NCBI RefSeq assembly: GCF_009649845.1 | Contig: NZ_WJIE01000010.1 | Coordinates: 62,001 to 126,000 of the forward strand | Length of the DNA: 64,000 bases | Direction: 5' to 3' | Source: Polyangium spumosum | GTDB lineage: Bacteria > Myxococcota_A > Polyangia > Polyangiales > Polyangiaceae | Shown here: piece by piece, positions 1 to 38,310 of the stretch | Numbering within the stretch: the first letter of the stretch is position 1 | How the letters are laid out: each line of letters begins with the position of its first letter | Notes under the pieces: model-generated | Databases searched by the model: none | What the model was told of the DNA's origin: nothing | What the model saw: only the letters and a program-made list of their open reading frames with translations | Translations under genes and position numbers: made by a program

Positions 1-2261
1 ACGCTGCGCCGCTTCTGCGCCGCCGCGAGCTGCTCCTCGGCGCGGCGTAGATCCTTCTCCGCCGTCACGAGCGCGATCTCGCTGCCGTGCGCCTCGCTCC
101 GCGCCTTGTCCACGGCTGCCGTCAGCTCCGCGATCCGCTGCCGCTCGGCCGTCTGCGCTTCGAGCAGCCCCGTCACCTGATCGCCGAGCTTCGCCACCAC
201 GTCGTGGAGCTCGCGGATCTCGCGCTTCTGCTCCAGCATGCCCGCGGCCACCGCGTCACCCGCGCCGCCGCTCACGGTTCCATCCGGACGAACCACCGTC
301 CCGTCGAGCGAGACGAGCGTCACCGTCGCGCCCGACGTCGCGAGCCGGATCGCCGCCTCCGCCGTGCGCACGACGACCGCGTCGCCCACGAGCGCCCGCA
401 CGAGCGGCTCGTCCTCCGCGGAGAAGCGCAACATCTCGAAGAGCGGCCCCACCACGTCCTCGCCCGACGGCGAGGCCGAGGCTCCGCCCGCCACGTACCG
501 CGGTCGGGCCGGGACGAGCGTCGCGCGCCCCTGCTTCTTCGCGGCGAGATCCCCGAGCAGCGCGGAGGCGCGCTCGGTGTTCGTCACGACGATCGCCTGC
601 AGTTTGTCCCCGAGCAGCGCGGCGAAGGCGGGGAGCAGCTCCGAAGGCGCCTCGATCCGGTCGGCCACGAGGCCCACGATCGACGGATCCTTCGTCTTGA
701 GCAGGCTCTTCGGCCCGGATCCCACGCCTTCGAGCCGCGCCTGGATCTCCTCGAGCGCCCGCAGGCGGCTGCGCTTCTGGTTGTGCTCGTTCTTCGCCTG
801 CTCGACCTTGCGATCGCTCGCGACCGCCTGCTCTCGGAGCGTCTTCGCCTCGTTCTCGAGCGCGGCTCGCTGCTCGGCCGACGCCTTCTTCTGCTCGGCC
901 ATCTCCGCGACCTGCGTCGCCAGCGCCTCGCGCTTCTTCTCGAGCTCTTCCAGCTCGTAGACCAGCCGCCCGTGCTCGTCGTCGAGCTTCTCGCGGCGGA
1001 TCATCATGTCCGAGAACCGCCGCTCGTAACCCGTCAGCGTCGCCTCGGCCGCCGCGACCTTCGCCGCCGCGTCCGCTGCCAGCTTGCGCAGCCGTGACGC
1101 CTCCTGCTCGGCCTCCTTCTCGCCTGCGCGCACCTCCTCGAGCAGCTCGTGTTCTTCGAGCGCCTCGCGGTTCTCGCGTTGCTCCTCGGCGGCCACGTTC
1201 TCGAGCTGCTTCTCCAGCTCCGCGCGCTCGACCTTGAGGTCCGCGATCGTCTTCTCCAGGTCCTCTTGCTCGATCGTCGCCGCGGCCCTGCGCTCTTCGA
1301 GGTGCTTGAAGCGATCCTTGGCGCGCGCGAGCTCGGCCTGGAACGTGCGCACGTCGTTGTCGGCGGAGAACGCCGCGTTTTGCGCCTTCTCGGCTTGCTC
1401 CTCGGTCTGGTGCGCGGCGAGCCTCTGCACCTCGAGCTCGGCGTCACGCGCGGCGAGCGCCGTGCGCGAGGCGAGGACCTTCTCCGCGTACTCGGCCCGC
1501 GCCGCGGTCTCGCGCTGCCGGAGCACGATGATCTCGAGCAGCTTGTGCGAGGCCTCGTGCAGCATGAGGTCCTCGAGCTCCTTGCGGTACGAGATGTACC
1601 GCTCGGCCTTCGCGGCCTGACGCTTCAACGAGGAGAGGCTGCGCGAGATCTCCGAGACGATGTCGCCGATACGCAGCAGGTTCTGCCGCGTCTGATCCAT
1701 CTTCTGCTCGGCCTGCTTCTTCCGGGCCTTGTACTTCGTGATGCCCGCGGCCTCCTCGATCAGCATGCGCCGATCCTCGGGCCGGGCCGACACGATGAGG
1801 CCGATCTTGCCCTGCTCGATGATCGAGTACGCCTTCGTGCCGACGCCCGTGCCGAGGAAGAGGTCCGTGATGTCCTTCAGGCGGACCTGGGTCTTGTTGA
1901 TCAGGTACTCGCTCGTCCCGTCGCGGTAGAGCCTGCGGGTGACGGCGATCTCGGCGTAGTCCTTGTATTCGAGCGGGAGCTGCTGAGCGAGCTCGGGGTC
2001 GGTGTTGTCGAACGTGAGCGTGACCTCGGCCATGCCGTGTGGCCCGCGCGTCTCCGACCCGTTGAAGATGACGTCGGCCATGCTCCGGCCGCGCAGGTGC
2101 TTCGCGCTCTGCTCGCCCATGCACCAGCGGATCGCGTCGACGATGTTCGACTTGCCGCATCCGTTCGGGCCGACGATGCCCACGACGTCGACGTCGAAAT
2201 GGATCACCGTCCGGTCGACGAACGACTTGAAGCCGGCGATCTCGAGCTTGCGAATGCGCAT
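1..2261 (-). CDS. smc: Chromosome segregation ATPase SMC (C-terminal part outside window)
   Basis: SMC forms the ring that, with ScpA and ScpB, compacts and segregates the nucleoid. I read 753 codons from the ATG at 2261 to the left edge with no stop. The start MRIRKLEIAGFKSF is the usual SMC N-terminus. Walker A GPNGCGKS lies at residues 31-38. A long Glu/Lys/Ala coiled coil follows from about residue 170, then a hinge domain around residues 520-640 ending in a GG turn (PDGTVSGGAGDA), then the returning coiled coil. The C-terminal head with the signature motif and Walker B must lie beyond position 1. The next gene, fmdB, runs away from it. A CATTAT hexamer sits about 45 bp upstream, but no clear -35 was seen. 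Identity is firm; only completeness is unknown. Confidence 0.96.
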   Translation of the reverse strand, partial: MRIRKLEIAGFKSFVDRTVIHFDVDVVGIVGPNGCGKSNIVDAIRWCMGEQSAKHLRGRSMADVIFNGSETRGPHGMAEVTLTFDNTDPELAQQLPLEYKDYAEIAVTRRLYRDGTSEYLINKTQVRLKDITDLFLGTGVGTKAYSIIEQGKIGLIVSARPEDRRMLIEEAAGITKYKARKKQAEQKMDQTRQNLLRIGDIVSEISRSLSSLKRQAAKAERYISYRKELEDLMLHEASHKLLEIIVLRQRETAARAEYAEKVLASRTALAARDAELEVQRLAAHQTEEQAEKAQNAAFSADNDVRTFQAELARAKDRFKHLEERRAAATIEQEDLEKTIADLKVERAELEKQLENVAAEEQRENREALEEHELLEEVRAGEKEAEQEASRLRKLAADAAAKVAAAEATLTGYERRFSDMMIRREKLDDEHGRLVYELEELEKKREALATQVAEMAEQKKASAEQRAALENEAKTLREQAVASDRKVEQAKNEHNQKRSRLRALEEIQARLEGVGSGPKSLLKTKDPSIVGLVADRIEAPSELLPAFAALLGDKLQAIVVTNTERASALLGDLAAKKQGRATLVPARPRYVAGGASASPSGEDVVGPLFEMLRFSAEDEPLVRALVGDAVVVRTAEAAIRLATSGATVTLVSLDGTVVRPDGTVSGGAGDAVAAGMLEQKREIRELHDVVAKLGDQVTGLLEAQTAERQRIAELTAAVDKARSEAHGSEIALVTAEKDLRRAEEQLAAAQKRRS

Positions 2262-2493
2262 TCCGTCGTCCCGGCGCGAGGCTGACGGTCACATGGCGTC
2301 ACATAATGCCACGTACCGCCACGCATCGCGCAGGGCTAGGGTTACACCCGCCGGGGGGGCGCGGCAAGCGCGATAGGGCAGGGGCCGACCCGGTCGTTCG
2401 GGGGCGGCACGTCCCGGTTGTACGGGGAGGGCTCGAAAGGGCTAGCCACCGGCGCCCTGGGTGGCCAGAATGGCCGGCAGTCGGCCCGTCACC

Positions 2494-2522
2494 TTGACAG
2501 GCGCCCAAGGAAGCCGTACCTG
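2494..2522 (+). promoter_or_regulatory. Sigma-70-type promoter of fmdB-like gene
   Basis: A perfect TTGACA (2494-2499) is followed after 17 bp by TACCTG (2517-2522). The start codon of the zinc-ribbon gene lies 26 bp further on, leaving room for a short leader. This is the best -35/-10 match seen near the left end. Confidence 0.6.
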
Positions 2523-2548
2523 CACGGCGAAATCCAGAGGTATTCTTT

Positions 2549-2875
2549 ATGCCTACCTACGAGTACGCCTGCACGTCCTGCACTCACGAGTGGGAAACCG
2601 AGCAGTCGATTCGTGAAGATCCCCTCAAGGAGTGCCCGAGCTGCCACAAGGAAACCGCCCGAAGGCAGATTTCCCGCGGCACCGGCTTCATCCTCAAGGG
2701 AGGCGGCTGGTACGCCGACCTCTACAGCTCGTCCGGCAACAAGGCCGCGGCGAAGTCCGAGACCAGCACGAGCTCCGACAGCAGCAGCTCGTCGTCGTCT
2801 GCGTCGTCGTCTTCGTCTTCGTCCTCGGACAGCTCGTCGAGCACGTCCTCGACGCCCTCGGCAGCCACGCCCTGA
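2549..2875 (+). CDS. FmdB-family zinc ribbon protein with Ser-rich tail
   Basis: This is a small protein of 108 residues. It starts MPTYEYACTSC, the signature opening of the FmdB/CxxC-CxxC regulatory family. Two zinc-binding pairs are visible, C8/C11 and C29/C32. After residue 70 the protein becomes a low-complexity tail made almost wholly of serine, encoded by runs of tcg, tcc and agc codons. FmdB proteins are proposed regulators or RNA-associated zinc ribbons, but their exact function is poorly known. The gene stands alone between divergent smc and pheA and has its own promoter (2494-2522). The Ser tail probably is disordered and may vary in length between strains. Confidence 0.85.
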   Translation: MPTYEYACTSCTHEWETEQSIREDPLKECPSCHKETARRQISRGTGFILKGGGWYADLYSSSGNKAAAKSETSTSSDSSSSSSSASSSSSSSSDSSSSTSSTPSAATP

Positions 2876-2956
2876 TCCGGCCGATCCGGAGGCGCGGCGG
2901 GTCTCCCGTCCCGATCCGTATACGGTAGGGCCGCCCCGGGTCGGTCCGAGGAATGC

Positions 2957-2962
2957 TAGGTT
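2957..2962 (+). promoter_or_regulatory. Extended -10 element directly before pheA start
   Basis: TAGGTT lies 8 nt before the ATG at 2971 and is preceded by TG one base earlier, as in an extended -10. No Shine-Dalgarno sequence is visible. Transcription would start at or next to the ATG, so the message may be leaderless. Confidence 0.4.
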
Positions 2963-2970
2963 GTCGGGGT

Positions 2971-4089
2971 ATGGACGAGAGAAAGCGGCTCGATGAGCTT
3001 CGCGCGCAGCTCGCGGAGATCGATCACCAGATGCTCCGCCAGTTGGAGCGTCGCGCGCGTGTCGCTCAGGACATCATCAAGCTGCGGAGCGGGACTGCTC
3101 GTTTTGCGCCCATCGCAGACGGGCAACACTTGCTCGCTCTCGAACGAGCCGCCGAGCCGCCCCTGCCCGCGAGCGCCGTCCGTCCAGCCTTCGCCGCGAT
3201 CGACGCCGCCTGCCGCGTCTTCGAGGTCGCCCCACGCGTGGTGTTCCTCGGCTCGGAGGGCGGCTTCGGCTGGATGGCCGCGCAAGAGCACTTCGGCCCG
3301 AGCGCCGAGCTCGTCCGCAACGAGACCGTGCTCGGCGCCCTCGACGAGGTCGCCCGCGAGCGCGCCGAGTTCGCGGTCGTGCCGTACGAGTCGCTCGAAG
3401 ACGGCCTGATCTTCCCGACGATCCAGGGCATCGTGGCCGCGGATCTGAAGCTCGTCGGCGAGCACGAGCTCTCGCAGGTCCTGGTCCTCGCCAACGCCAC
3501 CGGCAGCCCGTCCGAGGTCGAGAAGATCCTCGTCACGCCGCACGATCACGCGGCCACCGTGCGGTACCTCGAGTCGAACCATCCACGGACGACCGTGGTC
3601 GACGTGCGCTCGCCGTTCGTCGCGCTCGAGCACGCCCGGGACAACCACGGCACCGCGGCGATCGTCCCGCGTGGCGCCCTCGGGCCCGACGCGCCCGTGC
3701 GCGTGGCGCGCGAGAACATCGGCGATCAGGGCGAGGTGCGCATGCGTTACGGCGTGATCTCGCGCCTGCCGGCGCCGCGCTCGGGCTCCGACGCGACGGC
3801 GTTGCTCTTCGGCGTGCACGACAAACCGGGCGCGCTGCACGAGATCCTCCAGCACTTCAAGGAGCGGAGCTGCAACCTGCGCCGCATCCAGTCGCGCCCG
3901 CTGCCCGGCGAGGGCTGGGAGTACGTGTTTTACGTCGAGGTCTCCGGTCACGTGACCGATCGGAACCTCGTCGCCGCCCTCGAGGGGATCAAGCGAGAGG
4001 CGAAGATGCTCAAGATCGTGGGCTCTTTCCCGCTCGAGCGGCCCATGCCCGCCACGCCCGAGGGAGAGGATCGTCGTCGAACGTCATGA
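2971..4089 (+). CDS. pheA: Prephenate dehydratase-like protein with chorismate mutase and ACT regions
   Basis: The layout of 372 residues is that of a P-protein: an N-terminal chorismate-mutase-like helix (residues 1-80), a prephenate dehydratase domain (about 85-270) and an ACT domain (about 275-355). The family opening is seen as VFLGSEGGFGWMA and the VPYES motif is near canonical. Two expected motifs are altered. The dehydratase Thr-Arg-Phe motif that supplies the catalytic Thr reads Met-Arg-Tyr (258-260). The ACT phenylalanine-binding motif ESRP reads QSRP (307-310), while GAL (287-289) is kept. It may therefore be an altered-specificity, slow or regulatory version of the last common step to phenylpyruvate. 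I chose the ATG at 2971 over 2953 because a -10-like element lies between them. The stop overlaps the next gene by 4 bp. Confidence 0.8.
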   Translation: MDERKRLDELRAQLAEIDHQMLRQLERRARVAQDIIKLRSGTARFAPIADGQHLLALERAAEPPLPASAVRPAFAAIDAACRVFEVAPRVVFLGSEGGFGWMAAQEHFGPSAELVRNETVLGALDEVARERAEFAVVPYESLEDGLIFPTIQGIVAADLKLVGEHELSQVLVLANATGSPSEVEKILVTPHDHAATVRYLESNHPRTTVVDVRSPFVALEHARDNHGTAAIVPRGALGPDAPVRVARENIGDQGEVRMRYGVISRLPAPRSGSDATALLFGVHDKPGALHEILQHFKERSCNLRRIQSRPLPGEGWEYVFYVEVSGHVTDRNLVAALEGIKREAKMLKIVGSFPLERPMPATPEGEDRRRTS

Positions 4090-8443: not shown

Positions 8444-8451
8444 CCAGAGGT

Positions 8452-8495
8452 CCAGGGCTTGCCCTGGTCCAGGTCCAGGGGTGGACAACCCCTGG
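8452..8495. repeat. Two further hairpins between xerD and the Gld operon
   Basis: CCAGGGC-TT-GCCCTGG (8452-8467) and CCAGGGGT-N5-ACCCCTGG (8475-8495) are consecutive perfect stems. With the hairpin at 8417-8443 they make a three-hairpin block in a 124-bp convergent intergenic space. The CCAGGG-based units look like a dispersed palindromic element, although other copies are not recognised in this window. Confidence 0.5.
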
Positions 8496-8540
8496 TCGGG
8501 GTCCGGGGTGAAACGCCGGCGCTACGCTGTAAGCTTGCAG

Positions 8541-27663: not shown

Positions 27664-27742
27664 AGGGTCCAGGTATCGTCGGCGGGAGCGGGGAGGTTGG
27701 CAAGGGGCATGGCCGTTGCGCGCGCCCGCTGCCCCGGGCAAG

Positions 27743-28390
27743 ATGGCTCGCATGGGCGACCCCGCGCGAAAGATCAAGCCGCCTGTCAAGCCTGCGACGC
27801 TGGAGGATCTGCTGGCGATCCCCGCGGAGGAGCGCCGTCACGAGATCATCGACGGCGAGCTCGTCCCGAAGGAAGCGTCGAGCCCGCGGCATGGCCTGGG
27901 CCAAGTCAGCATGAGCGGACAGCTCTGGAGCGTCTTCGGAGGTCCACCAGGGCGCCGGGGCCCGGGCGGCTGGTGGATCCTCTCGGAGGTCGAAGTCCTC
28001 TTCGCCCCGGATCAGCTCTACCGCCCCGACATCTCCGGCTGGCGTCGTGAACGGTTGCCCCGGCTGCCCGACACCTGGCCCATGACGTTGCGCCCCGACT
28101 GGGTCTGCGAGATCCTCTCCCCGAGCAACACCACGAACGACACGGTCAAGAAGCGCCGCACCTACCACCGTTATCAGGTCCCCCATTACTGGATCCTCGA
28201 TCCGATGCGCGGCGAGCTCACGGTCTACCGCTGGGCGGACGGCGGGTATCTGGTCGTCGCCGAGGCCACGCGCGGCGAGCGTATCCGCGCCGAACCTTTC
28301 GACGCCGTCGAGCTCGATGTGGATGAATTGCTCGGGTACGGGGAGGAAGCCGAAGAGGAGACGCCGCCCGCGGGCGAGCCCGAGCCCTGA
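27743..28390 (+). CDS. Uma2-family PD-(D/E)XK nuclease-fold protein
   Basis: This protein of about 215 residues has the Uma2 (DUF820) pattern: a start region PATLEDLLAIPAEERRHEIID, RPDISGW, WVCEILSPSN and a Tyr/Trp-rich end HYWILDPMRGELTVYRW. The Asp of RPD and the Glu of CEILS correspond to the nuclease-fold metal-binding residues. Uma2 proteins are abundant in myxobacteria and cyanobacteria and are suspected to be mobile, but their biological function is unproven. The start may be 27743 or 27752. It is divergent from the FemAB-like gene with about 80 bp between starts. Confidence 0.85.
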   Translation: MARMGDPARKIKPPVKPATLEDLLAIPAEERRHEIIDGELVPKEASSPRHGLGQVSMSGQLWSVFGGPPGRRGPGGWWILSEVEVLFAPDQLYRPDISGWRRERLPRLPDTWPMTLRPDWVCEILSPSNTTNDTVKKRRTYHRYQVPHYWILDPMRGELTVYRWADGGYLVVAEATRGERIRAEPFDAVELDVDELLGYGEEAEEETPPAGEPEP

Positions 28391-28402
28391 GGGCGCGGCG
28401 CC

Positions 28403-28432
28403 TTGACAATGGCCGCCGCGCCCCCGTAGCCT
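28403..28432 (+). promoter_or_regulatory. Sigma-70-type promoter
   Basis: TTGACA (28403-28408), an 18-bp spacer and TAGCCT (28427-28432) precede the gene at 28458. A GGAGG Shine-Dalgarno at 28447-28451 sits 6 nt before its ATG. Confidence 0.6.
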
Positions 28433-28457
28433 GCGCCGCGACATACGGAGGAACCCC

Positions 28458-29195
28458 ATGGCTGCACCGAGCTTCGCCCACGTCCCCGAGGAGGGGTTCA
28501 AATCCTTCGCGCAGGAGCTCTCGCAGGGAGCGTGGGCGCTCATCGATACCAAGCCTTACGCGGGGCCCGGCGACACAAAAGCGAAATCGCTCGGCGACGC
28601 GCCGCTCCTCGTGACGTGCAAGCTCCGGCTCACGTGGGTCATCGCCGAGCTCGTCTCGGCCCGAGGCGGCGCGGACAGCGCGCAAGCCGCGGACGACGCC
28701 TGGGACAGCGCGCAGCGCCGCGGCCAGAGCCTCCTCCACGCCGCGACGCTCGACCCGAGCCCCGACCGGCGCGCCGCGGCGACGCGCCTCCAGAAGGCGC
28801 TCATGAAAGGTACGGGCACGGCCCAGACGAAGCTGCGTTATCAGCAGGAGGTCGATTACGGCCGCACGCAGCTCTCGCTCGCGAACGAGCCCCAGAATGC
28901 AGCCGACATCGATCTGCTCGGCCTCGGCGGCTGGCTCGTGGAGGTCGAGCAGGCGACGGAGTCGCTCGCCGAGGCGATCGGCTACGAGCAAGGCACGGGC
29001 CGCCGGCCGTTCCAGCGCAGGCGCGCGGCGCTCTCCGCGTGCTCGACGAACTTCGTGGTCGTGGAGAATGAGCTCGCCTGGGCGCTCCGCCACGGAGACG
29101 AGGCCGACCACAAGCGCGTGAGCGCGCTCCTCGAATCGCTGCACGGCCTCGCGAGGCGATACCCGCCGCCCGCCCCGGCGAAGCCCGAGGCATAG
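28458..29195 (+). CDS. Hypothetical cytoplasmic helical protein
   Basis: I do not recognise this 245-residue protein. It has no signal peptide or membrane segment. The sequence is mostly helical and rich in Ala, Glu, Arg and Leu, and includes repeated Trp residues (LRLTWVIAEL, GLGGWLVEVEQ, ENELAWALRHG). A good promoter and Shine-Dalgarno and normal codon use show that it is a real gene. It is monocistronic, with about 370 bp of non-coding DNA behind it. Confidence 0.75.
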   Translation: MAAPSFAHVPEEGFKSFAQELSQGAWALIDTKPYAGPGDTKAKSLGDAPLLVTCKLRLTWVIAELVSARGGADSAQAADDAWDSAQRRGQSLLHAATLDPSPDRRAAATRLQKALMKGTGTAQTKLRYQQEVDYGRTQLSLANEPQNAADIDLLGLGGWLVEVEQATESLAEAIGYEQGTGRRPFQRRRAALSACSTNFVVVENELAWALRHGDEADHKRVSALLESLHGLARRYPPPAPAKPEA

Positions 29196-29563
29196 CAGCG
29201 TCAGGTCCCATCGGCGCTTCGGCGCGGAAGCGGCGCGCCGGATGGAGCGCGGCGGAGGGGGGCGCCGTTCGGCGTCGGCGACGGTCGGGGGCGCCCGTCC
29301 GGTCGAGCGCCGCTTTCACGGATCATCGCTCGGCGGCGCGTGGATCTCGGCCGTCGTCGCTCCCCGGCATCGCCGCCGGGGGCCGTCACCGATGCCGGGG
29401 AGCGGTGATCCGGCCCGGCGGCGGTGCGGCGTGGCGGCGCCGCGGCGGAGCGCCGATGCCAGGTCGGGCTGCCGGCGCGGAGCGGCGCGGGCGGGGGGCG
29501 GTGAAGCTCCCTGCGTCGGTCTCCGTCGTTGTTCGGCCGAGTCACGTGTGATTCGATACTGCC
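29196..29563. other. Non-coding GC-rich stretch before toxin-like gene
   Basis: No supported gene was found in these 368 bp. The stretch is rich in CGG/CCG repeats and holds one large perfect inverted repeat (29359-29403). A weak GATACT hexamer near 29553 could be the -10 of the downstream lipoprotein gene. Confidence 0.5.
29359..29403. repeat. 14-bp perfect inverted repeat
   Basis: GCTCCCCGGCATCG (29359-29372) is repeated exactly as its reverse complement at 29390-29403, with a 17-nt loop. There is no T-run. It could end transcription of the upstream gene or act on the toxin-like gene that starts 160 bp later. Confidence 0.55.
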
Positions 29564-30550
29564 ATGCGAGCCATGGGGAGACGCCGCTTCGTTGTGCTGG
29601 GCGTGCTGGGATGGGTATTCGGTGGGGCATGGATGACGGGCGCGTGCGACGGGTCGAGCGGGCGCTTTCCCCCTCTCGACGTGAAGCCCCCCGACACGTC
29701 GACCGAGACGCCGGAGCAATGCCCGGACACCCTCGAATATCCGTGCAAACGTTACCACATCCCACTCGTGGGAAATCCGAGCACGGACGTGGCGCTGCGC
29801 GCCAAGTACATCGCGGCGTTTGGCTCGGCCTGCTACACGTCCGAGCCGAGCGTGTTCGGAGACAGCACGTTCAACTGCTTTTACAAAACCATCGACAAAG
29901 CATGCAAAGACGCAGCGCTCATCGGCGAGGTGTCGGGCAATGCGCCGTATGACAAGGGCTATACGTGTCAGCCCGTCGCTGGCACGGATGACTACACGCT
30001 GCAGATCGGCCCGGATGTCGCGAACAGCCTGCCGGTACGGTACAGGGACGCGCCGAGGCAGACGCCGCTGGTCGTGGTCGACGGGGTGCCGGTGGAGGTG
30101 AGCGGGCCGTATCGGGACTTGGTCGATCCGGTAGAGGTCGCGCCGGGGTATGAGTTTGACGGCAACAGCGGCATTGGCGACGGCGATGGCGGTTCCCTCG
30201 AGCAGAGGGAGTGGGTCCTCGCGGTCAACCGCAAAAAGAACAAGGGCGAGATTCGTTCCGATCTCGCGGGCTTCAAGTTTCCTTGTAAGAAGGGCGAGCC
30301 AGCGATATGCACCGAGCCGGACTTCCTCGAAGATCCAGACGCCGAAGAAAGGTCGCCTTTTTTTGCGGATACGGTCGCACAGGTGCACCACGTCGTGCCC
30401 AGGAAGGACAAGCGCTGTTGCCCCTGGGGCACGAACTCGTACGAGAATGCGGCGGTCATCTCGGCGAAGCTCAACCGGCATTTCACGAACAACGACCCGC
30501 CGGCGGAGGAGGTGAAGAGGCTCAACGACGCGGCGGCGTACACGCCGTGA
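29564..30550 (+). CDS. Lipoprotein with C-terminal HNH-type nuclease motif (candidate SitA-like toxin)
   Basis: The 328-residue product begins with a basic n-region, a hydrophobic core and a lipobox ending at the Cys of TGAC (Cys28), so it should be an exported lipoprotein. The middle has several Cys residues (29704-30300) that could form disulfides. The last third resembles HNH nucleases. EWVLAVNRKKNKGEIRSDLAG looks like the strand and turn before the catalytic core; the core is AQVHHVVPR with His275-His276, then GTNSYEN with Asn295, and LNRH with His306. Known myxobacterial SitA toxins are lipoproteins with variable C-terminal toxin domains followed by an immunity gene, which is exactly this layout. 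Nuclease activity and transfer are inferences. The start could also be the ATG at 29573. Confidence 0.7.
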   Translation: MRAMGRRRFVVLGVLGWVFGGAWMTGACDGSSGRFPPLDVKPPDTSTETPEQCPDTLEYPCKRYHIPLVGNPSTDVALRAKYIAAFGSACYTSEPSVFGDSTFNCFYKTIDKACKDAALIGEVSGNAPYDKGYTCQPVAGTDDYTLQIGPDVANSLPVRYRDAPRQTPLVVVDGVPVEVSGPYRDLVDPVEVAPGYEFDGNSGIGDGDGGSLEQREWVLAVNRKKNKGEIRSDLAGFKFPCKKGEPAICTEPDFLEDPDAEERSPFFADTVAQVHHVVPRKDKRCCPWGTNSYENAAVISAKLNRHFTNNDPPAEEVKRLNDAAAYTP

Positions 30551-30603
30551 TGCCGCGAGCGCACGTTTGTCACGACCACGTGGACGCCGAGAGCAACGTG
30601 GCG

Positions 30604-30611
30604 TAAGGAGG
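30604..30611 (+). promoter_or_regulatory. Strong Shine-Dalgarno fixing a GTG start
   Basis: TAAGGAGG lies 4 nt before the GTG at 30616. It decides the start of the duplicated protein and predicts high expression relative to the lipoprotein gene, as expected for an immunity factor. Confidence 0.65.
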
Positions 30612-30615
30612 CAAG

Positions 30616-32184
30616 GTGATCGAGTGGAATCATCGGTACGGAAACCTCGACTTCGACCGAGGCGCCATCGTGCGCGCCGCGTTGCGCGCCTACGTCGAGG
30701 CCATCTTCGGGAGCGGCGCGCTCAAACGCGTGTCGTTCGCAGCCTGCGCCTACGCGGGATGGACGGGGGACCTCGAGCGGGGCGCTTTCCGTGACGACGA
30801 CGGATGCGGAAACTATAACGTCGTGGCGTGGACCGAAGCGGGCATCGTCGGCCTCGCGTACGAGCTCGGGTGGGGTCCGATCGAGCAGCTCGATCTTTCG
30901 CCCTCTGCGGTGACCGGGGGCCCGGACGACGTGCGCGGGGCGGTGCCAGGGCTTCCCGAGGCCCTGGAGCCCGCCCTCGTGATGGCCACCGGCATGCTCG
31001 GAGTGGGACCCGAGCATGGACAGAGGGATGCCGGCGTGGGCTTCTGGCTCCACGGCGATCGCGCCGGCGGCACGTTCTTCGACGATCCGACATCGCCGGG
31101 CGCCAAGGGCCTGGCCATGTGGGGCTTGCTCCGAGGCGGTCGGCTCCTGCCGCCGATCTATCTTTCCACTCATCCAAGTAACAGCGCGGCCCTGGCGGAG
31201 TGCGACCGCAAAGATGCCCCCATCCACGCGCTCCTCGACGCCGTGGTCGATCGGAGGCTGAAAGGCCCCACCGAATTCACGCCCGCCGAGCTCGAGGCGC
31301 TCCGGGTCCCAGCGTCCGACCCGACGCGCCACCTTGGCGCCCAGCGTTTGCTTCAGAAGGTCGGCATCACCTGGCCCGGCTCGCCCGAGATCCCCGATCT
31401 GCCGCGGCAACGACGTCGGAACCCTTTTTTTCCCAACCCCCCGACGACGACGGTGCGCCCCCGTCGCGGCGTCGACCAAGGCACCCTCGTGCGCGCCGCA
31501 TTGCGGGCCTACGTCGAAAACGTCCTCGCTCGGCTCGACCCGCTCGATCGCCATCCCTTCGCGGCCTCCTTCGTCCCGCGCTGGACCGGGGACCTCGAGC
31601 AGGGCGCCTTCCGGAATGGCGACGCAGGCGGGGGCTACGAGGTCATTGCCTGGAGCGACGCGGGCGTCGTCGGCCTCGCGTACGAGCTCGGTTATGGCCC
31701 GATCGAACACCTCGAGCTCCCGATCGACGCGGTGAAAGGCGGCCCGGACGACGTGCGCGTGGCATTGCCGGAGCTCCCCGCCGAGCTCGCGTCCACGCTC
31801 GAAATGGCCACCTGCCTGCTCGATGTGGGAGCGCATGGAGAGAAGCTCGCGAGCGTGGGCTTTTGGCTTCGTGGCGCAGAGGTCGGCGGCTCGTTTCACG
31901 ACACCTACATCATGAAGGGCGCGGAGCGGCTGCGCGCGTGGCACTCCCTCCAAGGGGGACGGCTGCGGCGGTGGTATCAAGGCTCGTACGTGGCGGACCT
32001 CGGCCGCACGAAAGCCGCGCCCATCCAGGCGCTCGTGGACGCAGTGACCACCCGCGCCCTCGCCGGCCCCACGGAGCTCTCGCCGGACGAGCTCGCGACG
32101 CTGCTTCCCACCCCGCCCGATCCCGCGCGATTGCTCGAAGCGCGACGTTTGCTTCAGCAGGTCGGCGTCACCTGGCCCGGCTAG
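30616..32184 (+). CDS. Protein of two homologous halves, candidate immunity protein
   Basis: I do not recognise this 522-residue family. It has no signal peptide. It is an internal duplication: residues 15-255 and 288-522 are clearly homologous. Paired landmarks are VRAALRAYVE in both halves, WTGDLERGAFR / WTGDLEQGAFR, GIVGLAYELGWGPIE / GVVGLAYELGYGPIE, and the closing GITWPG / GVTWPG. An Arg/Pro-rich linker joins the halves. The gene starts 65 bp after the nuclease-like lipoprotein, on the same strand, with a very strong Shine-Dalgarno. A cytosolic partner right behind an exported nuclease is best explained as its immunity protein. The two halves may neutralise two toxin molecules or variants. 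Confidence 0.65.
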   Translation: MIEWNHRYGNLDFDRGAIVRAALRAYVEAIFGSGALKRVSFAACAYAGWTGDLERGAFRDDDGCGNYNVVAWTEAGIVGLAYELGWGPIEQLDLSPSAVTGGPDDVRGAVPGLPEALEPALVMATGMLGVGPEHGQRDAGVGFWLHGDRAGGTFFDDPTSPGAKGLAMWGLLRGGRLLPPIYLSTHPSNSAALAECDRKDAPIHALLDAVVDRRLKGPTEFTPAELEALRVPASDPTRHLGAQRLLQKVGITWPGSPEIPDLPRQRRRNPFFPNPPTTTVRPRRGVDQGTLVRAALRAYVENVLARLDPLDRHPFAASFVPRWTGDLEQGAFRNGDAGGGYEVIAWSDAGVVGLAYELGYGPIEHLELPIDAVKGGPDDVRVALPELPAELASTLEMATCLLDVGAHGEKLASVGFWLRGAEVGGSFHDTYIMKGAERLRAWHSLQGGRLRRWYQGSYVADLGRTKAAPIQALVDAVTTRALAGPTELSPDELATLLPTPPDPARLLEARRLLQQVGVTWPG

Positions 32185-32368
32185 CCCGCGCTCCCCGTTT
32201 CGCCGCGGCCAAGCAGCTCCTGGCCCCTTTCAGGCGGCGAATGCGTGTCACGCGCCCATGACACCGAGCGGCGCCCAGCGTCGCGCGCCCATCACACCTG
32301 TCACGCCGCCGTGTCGCCCGCTCCGCGGCGAATTCGCCGGAATGCGCGAACTCGTGCGCCTGCGACGC

Positions 32369-32385
32369 TGGCACGGGCCGTGCCA
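32369..32385. promoter_or_regulatory. Dyad upstream of secreted hydrolase gene
   Basis: TGGCACGG and CCGTGCCA form an 8-bp dyad around one central base, ending 50 bp before the hydrolase ATG. This could be an operator. No regulator gene is adjacent. Confidence 0.35.
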
Positions 32386-32435
32386 ATACGCGGCGCCTAC
32401 GGACGACCCACGCGAGGGGGCAGGGAGAACTTCTC

Positions 32436-34007
32436 ATGAACATTCGTGCTTCTTACCTTGGCAGGTTCGCTCTTGTCGCATCCGCGCTCCTCTTGCCCGT
32501 GGGCTGCGTGGCCGAAATGGAGGAAGGCGAGGGCGTGCTGGAGGTCGACGACGAGGTCGTCGCGGAGGCGGAGCAATCGCTGACGCCGGGGGATCCTTCG
32601 GACGACACCACGCTCTCGAGCACCTGCTCCTGGACCATCACCTGCGGCGGCGTGACGGGGAAGATGCGCTGGGGCAAGGACGGCGCGAGCTGCTGGTCCA
32701 ATGCGCCGTCGAACATGCCGCTCGTGATGATCCTGCACGGCAATGAATACGGATACGACGAGTACGGGTACCTCCAGGCGCACCTCGCGCGGAATGGCTT
32801 CGTGAGCGCGAGCATCGACGTGGTGGCGCCGGCGCCGGATGGCAAGTACAGCCCCGACGCGACGACACACACGCAGACGGCGCAGGCCGCGATCGATTAC
32901 CTGCGCAGCACCTGCTTCCAGGACGACTTCGTCGACAACTTCACCGTGGCGAACCCCGTGGACAAGCAGCACTTCGGCGTCGTCGGCCATAGCCGCGGCG
33001 GGGAGACCGCACGTTACGTCGCCTCGCTCCTCGCGAGCGCGAGCGATTTCGACGTCCGCGCGGTCGTGGCGATGGCCCCGACGCGCCACACCTCGCAGGA
33101 CATCTGGGGCACGCAGGCCGAGGGGTATCTCCTGCTGCACGGATCGAGTGATCAGGACGTCGGCGTCCTCCCCGGCTTCGGCGCCCACGACCAGGCAGGG
33201 CACAACGACTGGAGCACGCCCACCGGGTTCGACCTCTTCCGGAGCATGAAGTTCTTCGCGGGCGGCACGCACGGCAGTTTTTCGGACGCCGGGACCAGCG
33301 CGGCGCAACGCAATACGACGCAGGGCTACGTGCACGCCTATCTGCGCGCGCACCTGAAATCGGATTGGGGTTATTACGAGGACTACATCCGCGGCGACGC
33401 CGTGCCCGGCACCTACGCGAACAGCGTGTTCAGCCAGTACAGCGACCCCACCGCCCGCCGCGTCATCGACAACGCGGAGCGCGCCAGCCTCTCGCCGAGC
33501 ACCATCGCAGATACGGTGACCACGTCCGGCATCGGATCGATCACGCTGGAGGATGGAAGCCTCACGCTCGGCACGCCGCACGACACGAAGCTGCTCGTCA
33601 TCTCCCCGAACGGCTCGAACGCCTTCGTCCGCTGGGCGATCCCGTCGGGCAAGCGCGACGAGACGAGCTTCAAGTACCTGAGCTTCCGGCTCGGGCAGCT
33701 CTCGGGCGCGACGGGGACCGACATCCAGATCGGCCTGACCAACAGCGGGGTCAAGACGTGGGTGAGCCTGAGCGATTACGCCGCGATCCCTCAGCCGCGC
33801 TCCATGTGCGTCCACGGGCTCGCCGGGGCCACCTGCGCGGACATCCGGACCCTCGCCCACATGCAGACGTTCCGCATCCCGCTCTGGGACTTCCCCGCGG
33901 TCAACGACGTGACGTCCGTGGAGATCAAGTTCAACGGCACGACCGGCAATGACCGCTCGTTCCTCCTCGACAGCGTGGAGTTCTCCGAGTTCGTCATCAT
34001 TCAATGA
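32436..34007 (+). CDS. Secreted alpha/beta hydrolase lipoprotein with C-terminal beta domain
   Basis: The 523-residue protein has a signal peptide with lipobox LPVGC (Cys24) and an acidic linker. The catalytic domain (about residues 60-320) is a chlorophyllase/PAF-acetylhydrolase-like alpha/beta hydrolase. PLVMILHGNEYG gives the oxyanion strand, GHSRGGE holds nucleophile Ser186, GSSDQDV holds the acid (Asp239 or Asp241), and GGTHGSF holds His279. The remaining 190 residues look like an added beta-sandwich, perhaps for substrate binding. A GGGAG Shine-Dalgarno precedes the ATG. The substrate is likely an ester or polyester outside the cell; it cannot be named. The nearest upstream gene ends 250 bp away. 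Confidence 0.8.
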   Translation: MNIRASYLGRFALVASALLLPVGCVAEMEEGEGVLEVDDEVVAEAEQSLTPGDPSDDTTLSSTCSWTITCGGVTGKMRWGKDGASCWSNAPSNMPLVMILHGNEYGYDEYGYLQAHLARNGFVSASIDVVAPAPDGKYSPDATTHTQTAQAAIDYLRSTCFQDDFVDNFTVANPVDKQHFGVVGHSRGGETARYVASLLASASDFDVRAVVAMAPTRHTSQDIWGTQAEGYLLLHGSSDQDVGVLPGFGAHDQAGHNDWSTPTGFDLFRSMKFFAGGTHGSFSDAGTSAAQRNTTQGYVHAYLRAHLKSDWGYYEDYIRGDAVPGTYANSVFSQYSDPTARRVIDNAERASLSPSTIADTVTTSGIGSITLEDGSLTLGTPHDTKLLVISPNGSNAFVRWAIPSGKRDETSFKYLSFRLGQLSGATGTDIQIGLTNSGVKTWVSLSDYAAIPQPRSMCVHGLAGATCADIRTLAHMQTFRIPLWDFPAVNDVTSVEIKFNGTTGNDRSFLLDSVEFSEFVIIQ

Positions 34008-34070
34008 GCAGGCGGTAGCACCTCGGCGGGCAGGGGAGCGGGGCGTAGGTCGGGCCCCGCGCCCCCCGTC

Positions 34071-34171
34071 CATTCTCCGTGCCCCTACTACGCCGCCGAG
34101 GAGCCCGCGCGGCGGCTCTCCACGCACGGCATCTCCGCGCTCTCCGAGCACGACGCCTGGCAGCTCTCGCC
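34071..34171 (+). pseudogene. Fragment duplicating the M18 aminopeptidase gene
   Basis: These 101 bp align without gaps to 35411-35511 inside the intact aminopeptidase gene, with 8 mismatches (about 92% identity). They still encode a peptide reading HSPCPYYAAEE where the intact gene reads HSPSPYHAAEE, through to EHDAWQLSP. Nothing on either side matches, so this is a remnant left by duplication or insertion. It reads in frame, without a stop, toward the next lipoprotein gene but has no start codon. The rest of 34008-34307 shows no gene. Confidence 0.85.
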
Positions 34172-34307
34172 ATCGGCCCAGGTGCGTGTGCCCGCGAAGG
34201 TTTGGGGGTCAGGGTCCGTTCGAAATTTGGACCATGACCATCGCCTGTGGGATGAGGGCCGCGTCCGGCAGGTATCCAACGTATGCCGGAGGAAGGTGTT
34301 GTACATC

Positions 34308-35201
34308 ATGAAAAGTGCGCGTTTCGTCGGGCTTCTCGTCGCCACATTCCTGGGCTTCCAAGCCGTGACCGGTCTCACTGGTTGCGTGGGTGGGGCGGAG
34401 CCGAGCGAGGAGATGCCCGCAGGATCGGCGGTCGAGCAGGCGCTCGAGGGCACGGTGCTCATCGAGGTTGGCCGCACATCTCCCGAGATGGACCTCCTCA
34501 TCGTTCGCGCGAACCACGAGGTCTCGATCGAGCTCGCCATCGAGGGCGCGGCGACGTTCGCCGATGGCTCCACGTATCAGTCGATCGTGGCCGGACCTGG
34601 CGACGTCGTGCGCCTCCCGGCCATCCAGGCGTCGGATACGGCCGATGAGAGCTTCATCCAGGTGAAGCTCGACGGGATCGAGCAGGAGCGGCAACGTATC
34701 GCCGTGCTACCCGAGGGCGGCATCCAGAAGATGAAGGACGCCTTCGCCGAGATGCCGGGCGCGATTCTCAGCGTCGGGGAAGGCTTCGCCGTCGTCGACG
34801 AGGGCTTCGTTGCCTCCGAAGCGAGCGCGGTCGGCTCCTCCGTTGGGGTCATGTTCGTCGACGAGGACCAGACGGTCCCGCTCGGCCTTTGCATTCGCGA
34901 AGCCTGGGGGCCCGGCAAGGTGAAGTGGAGCTTCAGCAACCCCTCCGGGTCCGGGTACTCGTCGAAGCCTGAATCGTCGAACAACCTCGTGTGGGCGGCG
35001 GCTCCCGAGCAGGCCACGGACGGCATTTACCGGAGGAGCTGGGGTTGCGGAAACGCCTACAAGATTCCCGACTCCTGCACCGCGACTGTGAACTCCAGCG
35101 GCAGCATTTCGTATTGCTGCAACCTGGCCATGCAGCAGCTCGGTCACGTGTGCCAGTGGGTCAACCCCGGCGCGATCGGCTGGCCGAACTGCCCTCTCTG
35201 A
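34308..35201 (+). CDS. Cys-rich lipoprotein of unknown function
   Basis: I do not recognise this 297-residue protein. MKSARFVGLLVATFLGFQ opens a signal peptide that ends in the lipobox GLTGC. The middle is a beta-rich domain of about 150 residues. The last 100 residues hold seven Cys (including an adjacent pair in SYCCNLAM) and several Trp, suggesting a disulfide-stabilised secreted domain. GGAGGAAGG lies about 12 nt before the ATG. The frame is open further upstream into the aminopeptidase remnant, but the signal peptide fixes the start at 34308. Expression context: upstream is a broken duplication, downstream a hairpin (35238-35258). Confidence 0.7.
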   Translation: MKSARFVGLLVATFLGFQAVTGLTGCVGGAEPSEEMPAGSAVEQALEGTVLIEVGRTSPEMDLLIVRANHEVSIELAIEGAATFADGSTYQSIVAGPGDVVRLPAIQASDTADESFIQVKLDGIEQERQRIAVLPEGGIQKMKDAFAEMPGAILSVGEGFAVVDEGFVASEASAVGSSVGVMFVDEDQTVPLGLCIREAWGPGKVKWSFSNPSGSGYSSKPESSNNLVWAAAPEQATDGIYRRSWGCGNAYKIPDSCTATVNSSGSISYCCNLAMQQLGHVCQWVNPGAIGWPNCPL

Positions 35202-35237
35202 GCGACCAGCGGCGTGGTCAGTTCGCGGCTGACTGAT

Positions 35238-35258
35238 GGATCTCCCGCGGGGAGATCC
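35238..35258. terminator. 9-bp hairpin after Cys-rich lipoprotein gene
   Basis: GGATCTCCC and GGGAGATCC form a perfect stem around GCG, 37 bp after the stop codon. No T-run follows. Confidence 0.45.
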
Positions 35259-35301
35259 AGGGGCGAGGGAGGATGGCGAGCGCGCGAGAGCTTTCGCCTG
35301 C

Positions 35302-35307
35302 TACCAT
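35302..35307 (+). promoter_or_regulatory. Extended -10 element before aminopeptidase start
   Basis: TGC-TACCAT ends 10 nt before the ATG at 35318, with no Shine-Dalgarno in between. This pattern again suggests a leaderless or near-leaderless message. Confidence 0.35.
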
Positions 35308-35317
35308 CCACCCGCCC

Positions 35318-36649
35318 ATGACCACGACCGACACCGTCCAGCAAGCCAGCGAGAGCGACCTCCGCGCCCAGGGCCTCGCCGCGGCCCGCGATCTCTGCGC
35401 GTTCCTCGACCATTCTCCGAGCCCGTACCACGCCGCCGAAGAGGCCGCGCGGCGGCTCGCCGCGCACGGCTTCTCCGCGCTCTCCGAGCACGACGCCTGG
35501 CAGCTCTCGCCCGGCGATCGCCGCTATTTCATGCGCGCCGGCTCGATCGTCGCCTTCGTCGTCGGCGACGAGCACCCCGCGATCGCGGGCTTCCGCCTCC
35601 TCGGCGCGCATACCGACTCGCCCAACCTGCGCGTCAAGCCCAACGCCGACCTCTCGCGCTCCGGCTACCAGGAGCTCGGCGTCGAGGTCTACGGCGGCGT
35701 GTTGCTCTCGACCTGGCTCGACCGCGACCTCTCCCTCGCCGGCCGCGTCTTCTGCCAGCGCAAGGGCGAGCGGCCCGCCGCGCGCCTGCTCGACCTCGGC
35801 CGCGCCGTCGCCCGCGTGCCGAACCTCGCGATTCACCTCAATCGCGGCGTCAACAAGGATGGGCTCGTCCTCAACGAGCAGAAGCACATGATCCCGGTCG
35901 TCGGCCTCGGCGCGGCCCCCGACGTGCGCGCCCTGATCGCCCGTGAGCTCGACGAGCGGCCCGACGCGATCCTGGGCTACGACCTCTGCCTCTACGACAC
36001 GGCCAAGGCCGCGATCGCCGGCCTCGGGCAGGAGTTCGTCCTCTCGGCGCGCCTCGACAACCTCGCGAGTTGCCATGCGGGCACGGCCGCGCTCGTCGCC
36101 GAGTCGGGCCGCGGCGCCTCGACCCGTATGCTCGTCCTCTACGACCACGAGGAGTGCGGCAGCCGCAGCGCCGCGGGCGCCGCCGGCACGGTCGTCAAGG
36201 ACACGATCGCGCGGATCCTGGAGGCGTATCCGAGGAGCGAGCCGCAGGGCTTGCAGCGGGCGCTCGCGCGCTCGTTCCTCGTCAGCGCGGACATGTCGCA
36301 CGCGCTGCACCCCAATTACGCCGACCAGCACGAGCCGCAGCACCAGCCCATGCTGAACAAGGGCCTCGTCATCAAATCGAACGCCAATCAGTCGTACGCG
36401 ACGGACGGCGGCACGGCGGCGATCTTCGAGGAGCTCTGCCGCGACGTCGGTTATCCCGCGCAGAGGTTCGTGGTCCGCACGGACCTGCCTTGCGGCAGCA
36501 CGATCGGCCCGATCACGGCCGCCGCGCTGGGGATCGCCACGGTCGACGTCGGCGCCCCGATGCTCAGCATGCACTCGTGCCGCGAGATGTGCGGGACCCT
36601 CGACGTGTACTGGTCCGTGGAGACGTATCGGCGGTTTTTGCGGGGGTAG
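35318..36649 (+). CDS. M18-family aminopeptidase
   Basis: M18 enzymes are cytosolic zinc aminopeptidases that prefer acidic or neutral N-terminal residues. The 443-residue protein opens with the family pattern FLDHSPSPYHAAEEAARRL. Metal and catalytic residues are visible in GAHTDSPNLR, SARLDNLASCHAG, YDHEECGSRSAAGA and near the C-terminus in SMHSCREMCG; ADMSHALHPNYAD is also diagnostic. I chose the ATG at 35318 because the earlier ATG at 35273 has its GGGAGG directly touching it, too close to function. A 101-bp duplicate of codons 32-65 lies 1.3 kb upstream (34071-34171). Confidence 0.92.
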   Translation: MTTTDTVQQASESDLRAQGLAAARDLCAFLDHSPSPYHAAEEAARRLAAHGFSALSEHDAWQLSPGDRRYFMRAGSIVAFVVGDEHPAIAGFRLLGAHTDSPNLRVKPNADLSRSGYQELGVEVYGGVLLSTWLDRDLSLAGRVFCQRKGERPAARLLDLGRAVARVPNLAIHLNRGVNKDGLVLNEQKHMIPVVGLGAAPDVRALIARELDERPDAILGYDLCLYDTAKAAIAGLGQEFVLSARLDNLASCHAGTAALVAESGRGASTRMLVLYDHEECGSRSAAGAAGTVVKDTIARILEAYPRSEPQGLQRALARSFLVSADMSHALHPNYADQHEPQHQPMLNKGLVIKSNANQSYATDGGTAAIFEELCRDVGYPAQRFVVRTDLPCGSTIGPITAAALGIATVDVGAPMLSMHSCREMCGTLDVYWSVETYRRFLRG

Positions 36650-36752
36650 GGGAGGAAGATTGGCCCGGCGACGAACCTGGGCGACTCGGCGACAAACGCC
36701 TCTCGCGTTGGTCGGGTGTACCTGCTAGGCTCCGCCTCGAAGGAGCACCCGC

Positions 36753-36983
36753 ATGCCGCCCGAACTGCAACGGCTCGCTGACGAGATCCTCTCCTTGCCC
36801 GCCCCCGCGAGGGCCGAGCTCGTGCGTTGCATCCTCGTGAGCCTGAGCCGCTCCGAGAGTGAAACGATCAAGCAGACCTGGGCGAAGATAGCGGAGGAGC
36901 GCTGTCGTCAGATCGACGCGGGCGAGGTCGAGCTCCTCGATGGTGAGGACGTCCTCCGCGAGCTCCGCGCGCACGTCCGGTGA
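36753..36983 (+). CDS. Addiction-module antitoxin component
   Basis: This 76-residue protein fits the putative addiction module component family (PF09720-like). It is short and helical, with MPPELQRLADEILSLPAPAR at the start and a Glu/Asp-rich end. It overlaps the following ParE-type toxin by 4 bp (GTGA), the usual antitoxin-first order. An extended -10 TGC-TAGGCT lies about 20 bp before an AAGGAG Shine-Dalgarno. It likely binds and neutralises the toxin and may repress the pair. Confidence 0.85.
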   Translation: MPPELQRLADEILSLPAPARAELVRCILVSLSRSESETIKQTWAKIAEERCRQIDAGEVELLDGEDVLRELRAHVR

Positions 36984-37270
36984 AGCGATGGTTCTTCCAC
37001 CCCGCGGCTCGCAAGGAGCTGCGGGTGGCGATCGCGTTTTACGAGGTGCGTCGCGAGGGCCTCGGTGAGGAGTTCCTCGACGAAGTCGAGGCGACCATCC
37101 GTCGCATCTGCGACATGCCCGCGACCTGGCCCAAGCTCTCCGAGCACGTGCGACGGGCCCAGACGCGACGGTTCCCTTACGGCATCCTTTACCGCGAGCT
37201 CCGCCAGCGGATCGAGATCATCGCGGTGTTGCACCTCCACCGTCACCCGGACACCTGGATGGGCCGCTGA
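36980..37270 (+). CDS. RelE/ParE-family toxin
   Basis: The 96-residue protein shows the RelE/ParE fold pattern: FHPAARKELRVAIAFYE at the N-terminus, GEEFLDEVEATIRRI in the helical hairpin and the beta strands RRFPYGILYRE and IEIIAVLHLHRHP at the end. The C-terminal HLHRHPDTW form is common in ParE-like toxins paired with PF09720 antitoxins. Whether it inhibits gyrase or cuts mRNA cannot be told. It starts with GTG overlapping the antitoxin stop. The copy looks intact. Confidence 0.88.
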   Translation: MKRWFFHPAARKELRVAIAFYEVRREGLGEEFLDEVEATIRRICDMPATWPKLSEHVRRAQTRRFPYGILYRELRQRIEIIAVLHLHRHPDTWMGR

Positions 37271-37323
37271 GCAGCCTCGCCCCGCATTTTCGCTGCCCTG
37301 GACGGCTGGAAATGCGCTAGAGA

Positions 37324-37341
37324 GTGTCGAAACTTCGACAC
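37324..37341. promoter_or_regulatory. Perfect palindrome, probable operator of desaturase gene
   Basis: GTGTCGAA-AC-TTCGACAC is an 18-bp perfect dyad (8-bp arms, 2-bp centre) centred 42 bp before the desaturase ATG. Its size and symmetry suit a TetR- or FadR-type dimer, and desaturase genes are often controlled by such fatty-acid-sensing repressors. The regulator is not next to it. Confidence 0.6.
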
Positions 37342-37374
37342 CTGTGGGCTGAGCTGCCCGTCGGATGAACTTCC

Positions 37375-38310
37375 ATGCTTCGTTACCGAGCCGACATTCG
37401 GACGTTGTGCTTCGTGGCGATCTACTTTGGGCTCGTCGCCGTGCAGTGGGTATTCTCGCCGACTGCGCTTTGGCTTGTGATCCCGCTCGTCGCGTTGACG
37501 TGTGTGTTCTCGTTCCTCGGCGCCGTGGCCACGCACAACACCGTGCATTGCCCCGTGTTCAAGCAGCGCTGGGCGAACCGGGCTTTCCAGGTCGTGCTGA
37601 CGTTGACCTACGGTCACCCCGTCAGCGCCTTCGTGCCCGGCCATAACCTGAGCCACCACAAGCACACGCAGACGCGGAGGGACGTGATGCGCACGACGAA
37701 GGTGCGCCATCGCTGGAACCTGCTGAACGGCCTGCTCTTCATGCCGACCGTGGGCAAGGACGTCTTCCTCGCCGACATGCGGTACTTCAAGGCCATGTAC
37801 CGCCAGAACCCGCCCTGGTTCCGGCAGATGATCCTCGAGGCCACGGTCTTCCTCGGCACGATGGGCGTCCTCCTCGCGCTCGATTGGAAGAAGTTCCTGC
37901 TTTATGTCCTCGTACCCCACCAGTATGCGGCCTGGGGCATCATCTCGATGAATTACCTCCAGCACGACGGCTGCGACCAGGACAGCGAATACAACCATTC
38001 GCGGAACTTCCTCGGCAAGTTCGTCAATTTCCTGGCCTACAACAACGGCTACCACACGATCCACCACATGGAGCCGGGCCTGCACTGGAGCCTCTTGCCC
38101 GCGGAGCACGCGAGGCGTATCGCGCCGTTCATCCACCCGAACCTCGATCAACGCTCGATGCTCGTGTACCTGTGGCGGACCTTCGTCTGGCCCGCCAGGC
38201 GGCGAACTTATGATGGAAAACCCGTCGAGATACCGGCCGAGGGCCCCGACGAGGAGTGGATTCCGCCGCCCCGCGAGGTCCGGCACGACCTCGGCGCGAT
38301 CGCCATGTAG
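37375..38310 (+). CDS. Membrane fatty acid desaturase
   Basis: This 311-residue di-iron desaturase or hydroxylase-type membrane enzyme introduces double bonds into acyl chains. The three His boxes are present: HNTVH (residues 54-58), HNLSHHKHT and YHTIHHMEPGLHW. Four to five hydrophobic segments lie at the N-terminus and in the middle. The C-terminus is basic, then acidic. A perfect 18-bp palindrome precedes it, so it is probably regulated alone. It follows the toxin-antitoxin pair by about 100 bp. Related hydroxylases and carotene-type enzymes share these boxes, so the exact substrate is open. Confidence 0.88.
   Translation: MLRYRADIRTLCFVAIYFGLVAVQWVFSPTALWLVIPLVALTCVFSFLGAVATHNTVHCPVFKQRWANRAFQVVLTLTYGHPVSAFVPGHNLSHHKHTQTRRDVMRTTKVRHRWNLLNGLLFMPTVGKDVFLADMRYFKAMYRQNPPWFRQMILEATVFLGTMGVLLALDWKKFLLYVLVPHQYAAWGIISMNYLQHDGCDQDSEYNHSRNFLGKFVNFLAYNNGYHTIHHMEPGLHWSLLPAEHARRIAPFIHPNLDQRSMLVYLWRTFVWPARRRTYDGKPVEIPAEGPDEEWIPPPREVRHDLGAIAM

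Follow-up and report, generated by a model that had tools for sequence, protein, structure and literature searches.

A decayed fragment of an M18 aminopeptidase gene upstream of the intact gene in Polyangium spumosum

Results and Discussion

A partial copy of the M18 gene lies upstream of the intact gene

The window (the whole stretch of 64,000 nucleotides analysed here, C10:62001-126000 of a surveyed genome of 10.76 Mb in 61 contigs) contains a 101-bp copy of an internal piece of an M18 aminopeptidase gene. The fragment lies 1.34 kb upstream of the matching block in the intact gene and in the same orientation. It is no gene, because its frame has no ATG, GTG or TTG before the GTG at 34182, which is already to the right of the fragment. 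We regard it, by a modest preponderance of the sequence evidence, as a non-functional M18 relic that arose in this lineage by a local tandem duplication whose extra copy was later mostly deleted. The features concerned are as follows (positions are those of the window).

34071 to 34171, plus strand: core block of the fragment, corresponding to M18 codons 32-64 in decayed form, 93/101 identical, with five private replacement changes
35411 to 35511, plus strand: block inside the intact M18 gene matching the fragment, from repeat search and alignment
35318 to 36649, plus strand: intact M18 aminopeptidase gene (PF02127, E 1.5e-130; listed ORF 35273-36649)
34311 to 35201, plus strand: lipoprotein-type gene between both copies, lipobox read by eye, assigned to no known family
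32436 to 34007, plus strand: alpha/beta hydrolase gene (PF07224, PF00561), left of the fragment
34207 to 34239, no strand assigned: imperfect 11-bp inverted repeat right of the fragment and before the lipoprotein gene, a single genomic copy

The gapless match of 34071-34171 to 35411-35511 at 93 of 101 positions, as given in the initial annotation, was reproduced exactly by ungapped comparison. BLAST returned a slightly longer block, 34058-34171 against 35398-35511 (114 bp, 89.5% identity, E 1.8e-39), and the repeat search gave the same block; the left extension of the core, 34058-34070, is weak. Homology beyond 34058-34171 was unsupported in either direction by shuffles and random window segments, in keeping with the flanks having been described as non-matching. 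The left flank 34008-34057 is borderline at best, its score being equalled by 58 shuffles and 209 random segments out of 1000 each; for 34008-34070 the counts were 277 and 281 per 1000, and for the right flank 775 and 913 per 1000. When the 303-bp spacer 34008-34310 was searched against the whole genome, only itself and the M18 gene were found at E<=0.001 (40 of 156 first-look candidates scored). An assembly fault is an unlikely source of the repeat, since the two copies have 8 mismatches in 101 bases.

Coding state of the fragment

The fragment frame is open, contains no indels and runs on into the frame of the lipoprotein gene (397 codons from stop to stop); an open frame carries little weight here because the genome is G+C-rich. 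The two copies had been said to encode the same peptide. This is true of the frame and not of the residues: 6 of 33 codons change meaning, and of the 8 base differences only 2 are synonymous. The fragment has the properties of a pseudogene fragment, that is, significant similarity to an intact gene of the same genome, a length (33 of the 443 M18 codons) from which the M18 product cannot be encoded, and changes without a silent bias, the last judged from five of five private changes, a small number and a plain count rather than a formal rate test.

Comparison with other Polyangium genomes

The genus set comprised the window genome and those of P. fumosum DSM 14668 (G002), Polyangium sp. y55x31 (G003), 15x6 (G005), 6x1 (G001) and a further Polyangium (G004), with one genome per species; among these six there was no strain closer than these relatives. 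The M18 gene was matched in all six, and a separate fragment beside it was found in the window's genome alone (spacer search, 40 candidates scored per genome). A more sensitive search with the fragment at the locus of the five relatives gave the M18 gene as the sole match (in y55x31, 5.5 kb upstream of M18 were covered). In four relatives the spacer had one weak match elsewhere (53-61 bp, 79%, E 2.8e-4 to 9.9e-4); these are not further M18 copies, because their surroundings have no M18 protein similarity at E<=0.1. Neither a relative carrying the fragment nor a longer conserved gene containing it was found, and the initial description of a broken duplicate, or duplication scar, is upheld by its absence beside M18 in five of five other genomes and by private changes that are all replacements.

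Among the fragment, its own M18 gene and the five relatives, 24 of the 101 columns are variable. The fragment differs from its own M18 at 8 positions, from P. fumosum at 12 and from the other relatives at 14, 14, 15 and 18. At 34076, 34127, 34130 and 34167 it agrees with its own M18 against all five relatives. The shared base is derived by both outgroups at 34167, and at 34076 it is seen nowhere else, the outgroups having a third base; the fragment's base recurs in the outgroup Byssovorax at 34127 and 34130, so these two agreements may be old. Five changes are found in the fragment only (34080, 34089, 34104, 34122 and 34131), all at codon position 1 and all replacing the amino acid. FastTree joined the fragment to its own M18 with a support of 0.81. 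The numbers are small, and the fragment was most likely copied from the M18 gene of its own lineage and has drifted without coding constraint, because its own M18 is the closest sequence and the five private changes are all replacements. At 34085, 34100 and 34119 its own M18 differs from the fragment and the relatives split between the two at each site, so the copy carries no date; dating it as midway since the species split, which relied on these three sites, was dropped.

Neighbouring genes

The M18 gene probably starts at ATG 35318, where the proteins of the relatives align, and DNA similarity to the relatives begins at 35290-35294. The lipoprotein gene, correctly placed between the copies in the initial annotation, encodes 296 residues with 8 Cys. 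Its product had no Pfam family at E<=5 and no NCBIfam family at E<=0.1, and the best solved structure was at E 0.067. An orthologue (68% amino acid identity) occupies the same place in P. fumosum, without the fragment. This was the only match among the five other Polyangium genomes, and also the only one among 29 other genomes in one draw; a second draw gave a distant match (30%, E 3e-5) in one of 59 other genomes of the family. For the hydrolase there was no match in the five other Polyangium genomes at E<=0.001, and distant matches (33% and 36%) occurred in two other genomes of the family among 30 searched. The hairpin at 34207-34239 was considered as a mobile-element end and rejected, since its sequence occurred just once in the genome even when up to 3 mismatches were allowed.

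Downstream of M18, at 36753-37270, a small antitoxin-like gene (PF09720) overlaps a 96-aa gene that has no Pfam match and that we take to resemble a RelE/ParE toxin. The antitoxin-like gene is found downstream of M18 in four of the five relatives (the P. fumosum contig ends there), and in y55x31 the 96-aa gene is matched only in part.

The region upstream of M18 differs between genomes

The fragment lies in a region whose gene content varies within the genus.

28382 to 35289, no strand assigned: slot of variable content, about 6.9 kb, with a conserved block on each side, from the edges of the relatives' DNA matches

The slot borders were defined by DNA matches over 150 bp. On the left, matches end at 27707-28381 in four relatives (the y55x31 contig ends short), and all five genomes that extend this far have a FemAB-like gene (PF04339 in the window) as the last conserved gene. 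On the right, matches begin at 35290-35294 in five relatives, 24-28 bp before the M18 start. Between these borders, and apart from the lipoprotein gene of P. fumosum, there is no long DNA match at the same place in the relatives, and the slot gene sets differ across the six Polyangium genomes. Besides the hydrolase and lipoprotein genes, the window's slot contains genes of 245 aa (with a weak DUF6261 match, below the cut-off), 328 aa and 522 aa, the last composed of two similar halves. The slot of P. fumosum contains the lipoprotein orthologue and two long genes; that of G004 has the same two long genes, one with an eCIS core domain (PF13699), and no lipoprotein match. The slots of 6x1, 15x6 and y55x31 have in common another gene. 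The 15x6 slot also has a full-length gene with a shortened second copy beside it on the same strand (L058:1481-2131 and 1789-3717); the shortened copy is 75% identical to the full gene over 109 aa and 45% over 95 aa at opposite ends, with the middle missing. Its frame is still open, so it is no proof of decay.

At 29564-32184 in the window, the 328-aa gene has a lipoprotein-like start, a His-containing C-terminus and no Pfam match, and is followed by the 522-aa gene. The C-terminus presumably resembles an HNH-type nuclease. The halves of the 522-aa gene are 69% identical in DNA, and each genome of the genus has between 1 and 12 matches to the gene. From their sequences the two look like a polymorphic toxin and immunity pair.

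One tentative reading, which we put forward as a doubtful one, is that the slot may be a genus-wide cargo slot in which local duplication and deletion on a small scale, and not an integrase or transposon, repeatedly rebuild the content; the fragment would then be one footprint.

Local repeats and an interspersed element

A repeat survey was made over 884 kb (the window and 41 other stretches), in which the joined stretches of each contig were compared with themselves by BLAST and pairs of at least 60 bp and at least 80% identity within 10 kb were kept. It gave 27 repeat pairs, the fragment and M18 included, some of which belong to an interspersed repeat. In 8 of the 17 classified direct pairs, again including the fragment and M18, one copy overlaps a predicted gene and the other lies outside (seven loci); genes were predicted by a simple rule of G+C by codon position, and some overlaps are partial. 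Local partial repeats are thus not rare in this genome. The GC-rich left flank of the fragment was rejected as an interspersed repeat, since none of the 15 profile hits obtained over the 884 kb (E<=10) fell there.

The survey also encountered an intergenic element of about 310 bp, at L071:19249-19570 (G000:C10:225249-225570), C10 143430-143741 and C1 152007-152327, and the window has a single isolated end near 8445-8528 on the minus strand. At least 72-86 matching pieces per genome are found in all six Polyangium genomes (40 scored of 134-449 candidates in each), and the copies likely far exceed this count. Folded as DNA, the element forms a single long hairpin with branches (z -8.7). Four aligned copies show inverted ends and conserved inner parts, and the one copy scanned reached no Rfam gathering score. 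The element could represent a miniature mobile element or a family of structured RNAs. In P. fumosum, two direct copies of an interspersed-element end (L054 84-170 and 7311-7396; 88 bp, 89%) flank the slot and M18, and are possible recombination points.

Origin of the fragment

We favour, somewhat above even chance, a local tandem duplication by illegitimate recombination, which would have begun upstream of the lipoprotein gene and ended within M18 near codon 65. The right end of the fragment (34171/34172) would then be the duplication junction. A later deletion would have spared only these 101 bp of the extra copy, taking away the first copy of the lipoprotein gene together with roughly the first 30 codons of M18. 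Such a tandem duplication with deletion gives the orientation, distance and position of the fragment, and the shortened second gene copy in the 15x6 slot and the similar local repeats elsewhere in the genome support it. Against it, two events are needed and the flanks show no record of the supposedly deleted part.

A one-step templated patch, in which a break between the hydrolase and lipoprotein segments was repaired with about 101-114 bp of M18 as filler, is the strongest competitor and still an unlikely one. It accounts for the data as well with a single event, fewer than duplication plus deletion, and it fits a piece from the interior of M18 whose flanks show no supported homology on either side. 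The hydrolase is without a match in the relatives, and therefore a new join was probably made here. On the other hand, 101-114 bp is long for filler DNA, and the 15x6 slot shows a tandem copy of another gene.

The initial annotation proposed that the lipoprotein gene had arrived with, or by way of, the copied M18 piece. The gene does lie exactly between the copies and is matched in just one of the five other Polyangium genomes, yet we consider such an insertion improbable. The P. fumosum orthologue sits in the same slot with the fragment absent, and the block is internal to M18 without touching the right slot border. The right copy starts at codon 27-32, 104-121 bp inside the border at 35290-35294 rather than abutting it. 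These 104-121 bp between border and block are single-copy, which disfavours a target duplication of the simple kind made where an insert joins its site. An empty site, predicted to have the hydrolase directly beside M18, was seen in none of the five relatives, as the hydrolase is unmatched in all of them at E<=0.001; other genes stand there where the slot was covered (5.5 kb upstream in y55x31).

That the fragment has a function, as a leader peptide, a regulatory segment of the lipoprotein gene or an N-terminal extension of its product, is very improbable. Its frame is open and continuous with the lipoprotein gene, but the first in-frame start, at 34182, lies to its right, the private changes all replace residues, it is absent in P. 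fumosum despite the lipoprotein gene there, and 28000-37500 has no Rfam match at gathering score. A promoter and terminator scan of 33900-35400 found none, which says little because shuffles also yield about none. Integration of a site-specific element at M18 that displaces a fragment, as happens at tRNA genes, was set aside, no integrase or transposase family being present in 19 proteins from the region and two relatives' slots (part of the slot genes; 7 of the 19 without any family), and plasmid origin of 34008-35320 was dismissed, this segment having no plasmid match.

Significance and comparison with known systems

If the fragment is a relic of duplication and deletion, it is expected to do nothing. 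It is then one more partial-duplication relic, an ordinary genomic scar of little importance in itself, and annotators are warned that there is no gene to call here. Its use is that of a footprint: seen alongside gene sets that vary at this one place across six genomes, it points to a reshaped slot in these soil myxobacteria of the genus Polyangium. A literature search found no report on this locus.

Bacterial genomes carry pseudogene fragments from partial local duplication. The fragment is like these in being a short collinear piece on the same strand, within less than 2 kb of the adjacent intact gene, and in carrying replacement changes. It differs in that it is very short (101 bp) and gene-internal, with the rest of any duplicate gone, so that the route to it is inferred. 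For an engineered, selected duplication, illegitimate recombination at microhomologies has been described as a source of tandem duplication (PMC11111574). A local duplication between short matches would produce the geometry of the fragment.
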